Below, piece by piece: positions 52,812 to 55,777 of a stretch of DNA of 64,000 nucleotides. The stretch covers positions 100,107 through 164,106 of IMG/VR virus record IMGVR_UViG_3300020057_000027. One strand, given 5' to 3'. The DNA comes from a virus. Position numbers and translations under genes: made by a program. The notes beneath the pieces were generated by a model. That model made no database searches, had not been told where the DNA came from, and was given only the letters and a program-made list of their open reading frames with translations. Numbering within the stretch: position 1 is the first letter of the stretch; every line of letters starts with the position of its first letter.

Positions 52812-53405
52812 ATGGCTTTTAAAATTCAAGATATCAAGACAGCATTAGAGTTTGGTGGAGCACGTCCGTCACTCTTTAGAGTAGAGCTAGACCTTCCGCT
52901 TGCTATAAGCGGAGGTCAAATTCTTCCACAAGGCGGTTCACAAGCGGCAGATAAAACTACATTCAAAAACAAATTAAGTTTTCTATGTAATGCTGCTTCT
53001 TTACCCTCTTCAACTATTGCTCCAATCGAAGTATCATACTTTGGTAGAAAAATTAAGGTTGCTGGTAATAGAACATTCCCTGAATGGACATTGACTATTA
53101 TCAACGATGAAGATTTTGCTTTAAGAAATGCTTTTGAATCATGGATGGGAGCTATCAACGGACATACAACTAACTTACGTAACTCTGGTGCTACATCAAC
53201 TCCAGATACATATAAGGTAGACGGTAAGGTATTACAATTTGGAAAAGCTGATGATCAGTCTCCAATTAGAAAGTACCAATTTCAAGGTTTGTTTCCAACT
53301 GAAGTTTCTGCTATTGAAACAAATTGGGCAACCGAAAATGAAATTGAAAGTTTCACTGTAACCCTTCAGTACGACTTATGGGTTCTTGACGCCAGCAAAG
53401 AATAA
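52812..53405 (+). CDS. gp19: Tail tube protein gp19
   Basis: 197 residues (T4 163). The pattern ARPSLFRVELDLP, LSFLCNAASLPSSTIAPIEV, YFGRKIKVAGNRTFPEWTLT and FPTEVSAIETNWATENEIES is that of T4 gp19-type tube proteins. It builds the hexameric inner tube. Placed between sheath and portal as in T4. Confidence 0.94.
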   Translation: MAFKIQDIKTALEFGGARPSLFRVELDLPLAISGGQILPQGGSQAADKTTFKNKLSFLCNAASLPSSTIAPIEVSYFGRKIKVAGNRTFPEWTLTIINDEDFALRNAFESWMGAINGHTTNLRNSGATSTPDTYKVDGKVLQFGKADDQSPIRKYQFQGLFPTEVSAIETNWATENEIESFTVTLQYDLWVLDASKE

Positions 53406-53415
53406 TTTAGGCTCA

Positions 53416-53423
53416 CCTAAATA
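53416..53423 (+). promoter_or_regulatory. Variant late promoter CCTAAATA
   Basis: NNTAAATA-type element between tube and portal genes. Confidence 0.35.
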
Positions 53424-53480
53424 TCAAGTGAAGGTCTTGGAGATAATCACAAGCCTATTATAGTATGAACAGGAGAGCAA

Positions 53481-55589
53481 ATGGATTTTAAATTATTCGG
53501 TTATACATTAAAAAAGACTGAACTAGAAAAAGCTAAAGAAGATGCTAAGTCTTTTGTACCGCCTACTAATGAAGATGGCGCAGTAACCGTTGAAGGTGTT
53601 GGTGCCTACGGAGCCTTCATTGACCTTGAAGGCTCTTCTAAAAACGAATTTGAATTAATCACACGCTATAGAGAAATGGCACTTCTACCTGAAGTAGATA
53701 GTGCTATAGACGACATTGTTAATGAAGCAATTGTTGTTAATGGACAAAGAGATGCCGTAGAAATTAATCTCAGCAATATCAAAGAAAAGAAAGAAGTTAA
53801 AGAAGCAATCTATGAAGAGTTTGATAATATTCTTACTCTATTAAATTGGAATCAAAACTCATACGACCTATTCAGAAAATGGTATATAGACGGTAGACTG
53901 TTTTTTCACGTTATACTAGACGATCAAAAAAAGAAAAATGGGATCTTAGAACTTCGATATATTGACCCAAGACAAATTCGTAAAGTTAGAGAAATAGAAA
54001 GAGATGTTTCAGAACAGGGTGTTGAGCTATTAAAAGTTGCCGATGAATATTACGTGTTCAACCAAAGAGGACTTCTTCGTGGTGGTTCTGGTAATACCAC
54101 ATACACTGGCGCATCTACTACCGTAGAAGGTATTAAAATTTCTACTGATTCAATTCTATTTGTTCATTCTGGTATTGTAGATAAATTTTCTTCTACCATT
54201 CTTTCTAATCTACATAAAGCATTAAAAGGAATGAATCAACTAAAAATGATGGAAGATGCGATGGTTATCTATCGTATTGCTCGTGCTCCAGAAAGAAGAA
54301 TTTTCTATGTTGATGTTGGTAATCTTCCTAAATCAAAAGCTGATGCATATCTTAGAGATATCATGCAAAGATATCGTAACAAGATGGTCTACAATATCGA
54401 AACTGGAGAAGTCAAAGACGATAGACGAACACTTTCTATGCTTGAAGACTTTTGGTTGCCGAGGAGAGAGGGATGCCTTTCATTGAATACGCAGATAGAT
54501 TTACTAGATGGCCGTCAAGTTCCTTTAAGTGATTTAATATTAGAATATGATCAAGGCAAACAAAACTGGACATACTCTGTTTCACCCGAAGGAGAAATAG
54601 TTCCTGGCCTGATATCTTGGGCTGGCGTTACACGCAAAAATACTGATGTGCTTAAAATAACTCTCGACAACGGCGAAGAAGTTATAGCAACACCAGATCA
54701 CAAATTTATTTTGCGAGACGGCACTAAAATAGAAGCAAGAGATCTGAAACCACAAGATTCGTTAATGCCTTTCTATACGAGAGAGAAAGATAAACAAATA
54801 TTAAGTAAAGCAGAATACTTAGAAAAATGGTCTCCTGGCTTGGCTAAAATGCAAGCGATGAATGAAGAAAAGAAACTCCATAACCATAAAGTCGTTTCAA
54901 TAGAAATACTTTCTGAAAGAATGGATGTCGGAACCTTAACAATTGATAAAGACCACAGATATCACGATTATCACAACTTTGCTCTATCGGCTGGAATCTT
55001 TGTGATGAACAGTCAGGGCACTTCTATTGATACACTTCCAGGTGGTGAAAATCTTGGTGAGATGGCAGACGTTGAATACTTTCAGAAGAAATTATATAAA
55101 GCACTTAATGTTCCAGTATCAAGATTAGATCCAGAAAATGGTTTCCAATTAGGACGTGCTGCTGAAATTACTCGTGATGAATTGAAGTTTACTAAATTCA
55201 TCTATAGACAAAGAATTAGATTCTCACACCTATTCATTGAACTATTAGAAAAGCAACTAACTATAAAGGGTATTGTAAACCGAGATGAATGGGAGAATAT
55301 AAAAGAGCAAGTAACTTTTGATTGGGCTAACGATAATCACTTTACTGAATTGAAAGACTCTGAAATTCTTAGAAACAGACTTGAGCTTATTCAATTGATA
55401 GATCCATACACACAAAAATACTTCTCAGTTAAGTGGATTAGAAAGAACGTACTAAAACAGACTGAGGATGAACAGAAAACTGTGGATAAAGACATTGTAG
55501 CTGAAAAAGACGTTTACCCTGATCCGGCTCCCGCTCCGGGAGAAGATGGGGTTAAAATGACTAATTTTGATGATGGTAACGAATTTTAA
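53481..55589 (+). CDS. gp20: Portal protein gp20 carrying an intein
   Basis: 702 residues as translated. Residues 1-331 and 511-702 match T4 gp20: ELITRYREMALLPEVDSAID, LELRYIDPRQIRKVREIERD, YRIARAPERRIFYVDVGNLP, LEDFWLPRREG, then DTLPGGENLGEMADVEYFQK and RLDPENGFQLGRAAEITRDE. The T4 motif LPRREGxxGTxIxTLPGG is broken after LPRREG by 179 residues (332-510) with intein blocks. The spliced product is 523 residues, against 524 in T4. The dodecameric portal nucleates the prohead and is the docking site of terminase. GGAG lies upstream of ATG 53481. Confidence 0.95.
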   Translation: MDFKLFGYTLKKTELEKAKEDAKSFVPPTNEDGAVTVEGVGAYGAFIDLEGSSKNEFELITRYREMALLPEVDSAIDDIVNEAIVVNGQRDAVEINLSNIKEKKEVKEAIYEEFDNILTLLNWNQNSYDLFRKWYIDGRLFFHVILDDQKKKNGILELRYIDPRQIRKVREIERDVSEQGVELLKVADEYYVFNQRGLLRGGSGNTTYTGASTTVEGIKISTDSILFVHSGIVDKFSSTILSNLHKALKGMNQLKMMEDAMVIYRIARAPERRIFYVDVGNLPKSKADAYLRDIMQRYRNKMVYNIETGEVKDDRRTLSMLEDFWLPRREGCLSLNTQIDLLDGRQVPLSDLILEYDQGKQNWTYSVSPEGEIVPGLISWAGVTRKNTDVLKITLDNGEEVIATPDHKFILRDGTKIEARDLKPQDSLMPFYTREKDKQILSKAEYLEKWSPGLAKMQAMNEEKKLHNHKVVSIEILSERMDVGTLTIDKDHRYHDYHNFALSAGIFVMNSQGTSIDTLPGGENLGEMADVEYFQKKLYKALNVPVSRLDPENGFQLGRAAEITRDELKFTKFIYRQRIRFSHLFIELLEKQLTIKGIVNRDEWENIKEQVTFDWANDNHFTELKDSEILRNRLELIQLIDPYTQKYFSVKWIRKNVLKQTEDEQKTVDKDIVAEKDVYPDPAPAPGEDGVKMTNFDDGNEF
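54474..55010 (+). mobile_element. Mini-intein in the portal gene (179 aa)
   Basis: Cys1 begins CLSLNTQIDLLDGRQVPLSD (block A). Block B is GEEVIATPDHKFILRDG with the Thr-x-x-His core. The C-terminal blocks read HRYHDYHNFALSAGIFVMN with terminal Asn and +1 Ser in the extein. Only about 45 residues separate the splicing halves, so there is no homing endonuclease. The usual penultimate His is Met here, a known tolerated variation but notable. The flanking exteins rejoin exactly at a conserved portal motif. Confidence 0.93.
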
Positions 55590-55602
55590 TAAACTTGGAA
55601 AG

Positions 55603-55610
55603 GATAAATA
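55603..55610 (+). promoter_or_regulatory. Variant late promoter GATAAATA
   Basis: Immediately upstream of the prohead core gene; the distance to its ATG is only 5 bp, so it might instead serve genes further down. Confidence 0.35.
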
Positions 55611-55615
55611 CATAT

Positions 55616-55777
55616 ATGTCAAAAAAGAAACTAAAAAACCTTATTAAGTTAGCTTCAGAAATGAACCTTTCGGCTTTCAGAAAGACGCTAAAAGAAGTTC
55701 TTTTGGCTAAGACAGCTAAGAGACTTGACGAAAAAGAAGTACAGCTTTCCAAGAAACTTTTTAAAGAGAAACGTTAG
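55616..55777 (+). CDS. Prohead core protein, gp67/gp68-like
   Basis: 53 residues from ATG 55616 (GGAAAGGA upstream; an in-frame upstream start at 55595 is not preferred). Basic helix-rich chain (IKLASEMNLSAFRKTLKEVL, AKTAKRLDEKEVQLSKKLF). Short proteins of this size and pattern stand between genes 20 and 21 in T4 (67 and 68) and fill the scaffold core; the assignment rests mainly on position. Confidence 0.7.
   Translation: MSKKKLKNLIKLASEMNLSAFRKTLKEVLLAKTAKRLDEKEVQLSKKLFKEKR

Follow-up and report, generated by a model that had tools for sequence, protein, structure and literature searches.

A probable class 1 mini-intein in the T4-type portal protein of an uncultured phage, and its relatives in other portals

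The portal gene of an uncultured T4-like phage carries an in-frame insert of 179 residues, and we asked what this insert is, where it came from and whether the portal depends on its removal. The window (the whole 64,000-nucleotide stretch analysed, bases 100107 to 164106 of a virus record 164,106 bases long) contains ORFs for gp17, sheath, tube, portal and prohead protease in T4 order. DNA matches were to T4-like phages of Pelagibacter, Methylophilales and cyanobacteria. The exteins of the 702-aa ORF matched Portal_T4 (PF07230) with E=2e-162, in two stretches with the insert between them, and the ORF matched the PHROGs portal family phrog_213 with E=1e-190. Family membership and the gp17-18-19-20-21 gene order identify it as a T4-type gp20. 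Removal of the insert (702-179) leaves 523 residues, close to the 524 aa of T4 gp20 (PDB set), as the sequence-only reading had claimed. The features are collected in the table.

Coordinates of the portal gene and of the parts of its insert within the window
Feature	Position	Strand	Evidence
Gene 20 (portal) precursor ORF, 702 aa, unbroken frame	53481..55589	+	PF07230, phrog_213
N-extein, residues 1-331, C-terminal end EDFWLPRREG	53481..54473	+	Alignment to T4 gp20 23-341
Mini-intein, 179 aa, class 1 type, residues 332-510	54474..55010	+	PF14890, TIGR01445, HINT fold
Block A, intein residues 1-13, nucleophile C1 at 54474-54476	54474..54512	+	C1 in 100/100 family members
Block B TxxH, T73-H76 (TPDH)	54690..54701	+	T73, D75, H76 invariant, 19-relative alignment
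Endonuclease scar, residues 103-134, low model confidence	54780..54875	+	ILSKAEYLEKWSPG matches distal endonuclease segment of full-length relatives
Block F, residues 151-169; F:4 = Thr154	54924..54980	+	Family counts
Extra His164 and usual His167, both in block F	54963-54965, 54972-54974	+	Both invariant, 19-relative alignment
Block G GIFVMN, residues 174-179, penultimate Met178, terminal Asn179	54993..55010	+	Met 14/14 at site
C-extein, 192 aa, Ser+1 first (SQGTSIDTLPGG)	55011..55586	+	Alignment to T4 gp20 from 342/345

The insert starts with CLSLNTQIDLLDGR and ends with GIFVMN, followed by Ser+1 of the C-extein. Profile search, which had been named as a check on intein homology, gave matches of the insert to Pfam Intein_splicing (PF14890, E=5e-18, above the curated cut-off), to NCBIfam intein_Nterm (TIGR01445, E=3.8e-9) and to the RtcB intein model NF052663 (E=1.7e-33). 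The C-terminal model TIGR01443, which detects other inteins of the 164-kb genome, did not match the portal intein, and no PHROGs family was matched by the intein taken alone. An Rfam search over 53400-55700 found no intron and no other RNA family, ruling out an intron as an alternative. C1, T73, H76, H167 and N179 were invariant in an alignment of 19 relatives. The blocks proposed earlier (A, B and the C-terminal Asn/+1 Ser) are all there, and C1, TPDH, N179 and S+1 together define a class 1 intein by sequence. Class 3, which lacks the N-terminal nucleophile and has Cys at F:4 (WCT triplet), was rejected on the presence of C1 and of Thr at F:4.

About five further inteins were observed in the same genome outside the window (L036, L037, L038): a LAGLIDADG intein in a family B DNA polymerase, an apparently split intein of a gp41-type helicase in overlapping ORFs, a mini-intein in ThyX and two inteins in a B12-dependent ribonucleotide reductase, one with LAGLIDADG and one apparently split. 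Three inteins per genome (plus 14 introns) were termed unprecedented in a paper on crAss-like phages.

An AlphaFold model of the intein, built from the 19 relatives (mean pLDDT 82.8), showed the HINT fold, with the best Z score, 20.5, to the NrdJ-1 intein (8ubs) and 20.4 to the Mtu RecA intein (3ifj). Its single poorly predicted stretch was residues 103-134. Within it, ILSKAEYLEKWSPGLAKMQ shares 65% identity with the distal part of the endonuclease in full-length relatives (L010, for example). On this match, residues about 103-134 are not a plain linker and hold the remnant of a deleted HNH-endonuclease segment. The claim that the intein has no endonuclease was upheld, since Pfam found no HNH or LAGLIDADG domain in the 179-aa insert, which is thus a mini-intein, but the remnant has to be added to it. 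Most members of the portal intein family carry an HNH homing endonuclease (HNH_3 in Pfam, E=2.6e-8 in L004) and, given the scar, the window mini-intein is a deletion derivative. Its nearest relative, in L004, has kept the HNH portion but not the distal one; the two may represent different deletions of one full-length ancestor.

The intein interrupts the inner clip loop, where it separates the residues corresponding to T4 G341 and K342. R338 and K342 of this loop face the channel in T4 gp20 and their changes to Ala abolish packaging; the stem comprises residues 255-278 and 359-377, and the channel loop 350-359 (PMC4493910). With the insert in a loop needed for packaging, the earlier proposal that a working portal should require splicing is a sound inference, and the precursor is probably spliced. 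In 83 intein-free portals the N- and C-exteins are joined with a gap of 0 at the exact insertion residue (intein-free relatives L200-L203 and L288-L367); these 83 are the nearest to the N-extein by similarity, and the prevalence of the intein is not measurable from them. Their +1 residue is Gly in 75 or 76 and Ser in 3, while all 14 occupied alleles at this site have Ser. The closest intein-free portal, L288 (64% identity over the N-extein), has the SQGTS motif of the window, either as a pre-adapted site or as the footprint of a lost intein. Near gp20 position 332, L325, L358 and L288 are intein-free with Ser instead of the usual Gly at +1, and these residues could be footprints of past inteins.

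Relatives were collected by family-profile scans of IMG/VR, with the best 80 of 385 candidates retained, plus further scans. After removal of near copies there were 104 intein-bearing ORFs, and 104/104 matched gp20-type portals; loci were chosen by similarity to portal inteins, so distant members in other hosts may escape. Sites were assigned by dynamic-programming mapping onto window extein positions (T4 numbering is +10). The 100 family inteins fell at 306/309 (19), 318 (21), 328/329 (8), 331 (14, including the window intein) and 343/344 (38). All five main sites fall inside a 38-residue stretch of the clip/channel region (T4 about 316-353), with a probability of about 1e-4 for five random sites in 38 of 523 residues. 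The family, little noticed so far, has repeatedly invaded a small DNA-touching part of gp20. Two or more inteins were found in 11 portals, and the L008/L218 portal has three of this family. Its 1141-aa ORF (L008:1-3423, the same contig as L218) has lost its 5' end at the contig edge and bears inteins at 318, 331 and 343, a span of 26 portal residues.

A separate set with penultimate His occurs at 241, 246 and 266 (n=9). At gp20 position 266 (VIYRL^SRAPER) a second, unrelated intein family was observed in L072, L073, L231, L239, L274 and L284; these inteins have penultimate His, some have LAGLIDADG, and they are often paired with a site-306 intein. Among 50,697 phage records the only close intein match was the portal of an uncultured 484-kb phage (LR756508.1; L039:1027-5187), a distant, unannotated portal-like ORF with three inteins at other positions. 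A gp20-like portal is present in 2,502 of these records, and the other T4-like records were absent from the intein matches. An intein C-terminal region ending SHN^CLFNGSS was seen at L010:1223-2464, in an apparent large terminase of the same phage. At L233:1411-4361 a site-318 portal intein lies in two overlapping frames, and a split intein was set aside: the overlap falls within the endonuclease and no start codon precedes the HNH region in the second frame, which makes a frameshift likelier, though an early split intein is possible. A literature search, thin for subscription journals, returned no report of inteins in T4-type gp20; portal inteins have already been reported in mycobacteriophages (PMC5050341).

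The sequence-only reading had drawn attention to the penultimate Met in place of His. This is correct, but it is no peculiarity of the window copy, for Met occupies this position in 14/14 inteins at site 331. Cys is found in 17/19 at site 306, Lys in 29/38 at site 343 and 16/21 at site 318, and His in 1/100 members of the family. At least 83/100 have Thr at block F position 4, where Asp is usual, then Cys, then Trp (PMC4031507). The window intein lacks both penultimate His and F:4 Asp (Met178, Thr154), described as the usual assisting residues (PMC4031507), though they are not obligatory; with this combination, no particular speed or yield of splicing should be presumed. An extra His, three residues upstream of the block F His, is present in 97/99 portal inteins without penultimate His, whereas GyrB and RtcB inteins have penultimate His in 71/71 and the extra His in 0/71. 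An upstream block F His has been proposed earlier as a stand-in for penultimate His (PMC5050341). That the extra His compensates in the portal family may be taken only as a lead, because independent changes on the tree are few and 5/6 site-266 inteins of the other family have both residues.

We compared the window with L004. The intein splicing blocks are 94% identical in protein and 90% in DNA, while the 150 codons on each side are 87 and 85% identical in protein and 77 and 75% in DNA. At positions with the same residue, codons differ at 28/137 in the intein and at 125/248 in the exteins (P=6e-9); gp21, with 83/174, is extein-like. The intein is much closer than the exteins, so it moved between these lineages after the portals diverged. 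HNH homing would be the simplest cause of this transfer, though ordinary recombination, not driven by an endonuclease, could also be the source of the low synonymous divergence. Extein identity near the junction was not clearly raised next to the insertion, and we therefore draw no co-conversion tract. The dN/dS of the intein is about 0.29, a rough value with the scar region included, which indicates that the splicing domain is under purifying selection.

Two well supported groups emerged in a tree of 75 splicing domains, which has some long branches. Bacterial GyrB and RtcB inteins shared one of them with gp20 sites 329 and 331; gp20 sites 306, 318 and 343 formed the other. Inteins clustered by site (11 label changes vs 46.7 after shuffling). 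Cellular relatives in GTDB genomes were almost all GyrB or RtcB inteins.

The original proposal of a mini-intein in the portal is borne out by profile matches, by the fold, by empty-site alleles and by some 100 relatives. Very probably the insert is a mini-intein of class 1 that splices in cis from gp20 and derives from an HNH-bearing homing intein of the portal family. The precursor would fold, C1 would attack the Gly-1 carbonyl and the N-extein would be transferred onto Ser+1; Asn179 would then cyclise, probably aided by His167 and/or the extra His164, which we propose because penultimate His is absent, to give the 523-residue portal. On this reading its forebear was a homing intein with an HNH endonuclease, one of a portal-specific family whose members have entered the clip/channel region of gp20 at five points or more; the window copy has lost the endonuclease and retained the scar. 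The fold, the catalytic residues, the exact empty sites, the family and the signature of homing can be read from the sequences themselves. By default we regard the insert as the descendant of a selfish element, lodged in an essential gene, that splices fast and no longer moves; it would persist since nothing short of precise removal would be harmless.

It had also been suggested that splicing acts as a timing or redox switch on head assembly. A conditional intein of this kind, waiting for redox state, time after infection or a metal before releasing the portal for assembly, is improbable. Mini-inteins of the family are long-lived (34/100 members are below 205 aa), the splicing domain is under purifying selection, and non-His penultimate residues can change splicing rate in phage inteins (PMC5050341); but 83 intein-free relatives do without such control, Ser+1 is the sole conserved extein feature linked to the intein, and no observation favoured a timer. 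Redox control by an intramolecular disulfide fails, as the only Cys of the 702-aa precursor is C1, which has no extein Cys to be trapped with; oxidation of C1 or intermolecular disulfides are possible forms of a switch. A broader proposal is also unlikely: that of a portal-dedicated clade with its own catalysis, in which each site has its own substitute for penultimate His (Met, Lys or Cys), Asn cyclisation falls to a second His in block F, and the twelve portal subunits, each releasing one to three inteins, become ready for head assembly at a time set by splicing.

The non-canonical F:4 Thr and penultimate Met would fit a relic that is dead for splicing or merely cleaves, with unspliced portal tolerated. 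We regard this as very improbable, since the same residues occur in 14/14 inteins at site 331, Ser+1 and Asn179 are kept, and the insertion falls in a packaging-essential loop of an essential gene whose frame is intact and under purifying selection. The window derives from a metagenomic virus record, and an assembly or sequencing artefact could have fused an intein to gp20; we give this next to no credence, as identical intein and exteins are found on three further IMG/VR contigs, making a chimera unlikely, and site 331 is occupied in more than 10 divergent portals.

The intein sink here is a structural protein essential to the virus and not an enzyme of replication, and one family occupies five nearby points of the DNA-contacting clip/channel region in many uncultured phages. 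Its family-wide catalytic set without penultimate His, present in both full-length and mini members, allows Asn cyclisation in the absence of that His to be probed directly. Intein-bearing portals exceed the expected length by 30-130% and could be broken up or miscalled, which matters for annotation and gp20-based surveys.

The closest cellular relatives found, with 31-56% identity, are the GyrB (VEGDSAGG^) and RtcB (GVDIG^) inteins of bacteria and archaea, which sit in other host proteins, have penultimate His and lack the extra block F His. The Npu and Ssp DnaE, gp41-1 and NrdJ-1 inteins share the HINT fold with the window intein at about 16-26% identity; the window intein sits in a structural protein and not in one of replication. 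The mycobacteriophage PORT inteins of cluster C1 are also in a phage portal (PMC5050341), and phage class 1 inteins are often without penultimate His (PMC5050341); by description they are set apart, belonging to a different phage group with no T4-type gp20 among the hosts listed (PMC5050341). Multi-site hot spots are known in Prp8 (7 sites; PMC6805012) and mycobacteriophage TerL1 (5 sites; PMC5050341), where, as in gp20, a single protein is invaded repeatedly near its active centre and inteins cluster by site. The Prp8 sites are spread over several domains and are described as independent acquisitions (PMC6805012), whereas in gp20 one intein family occupies five sites within 38 residues, with two or three inteins in some portals.
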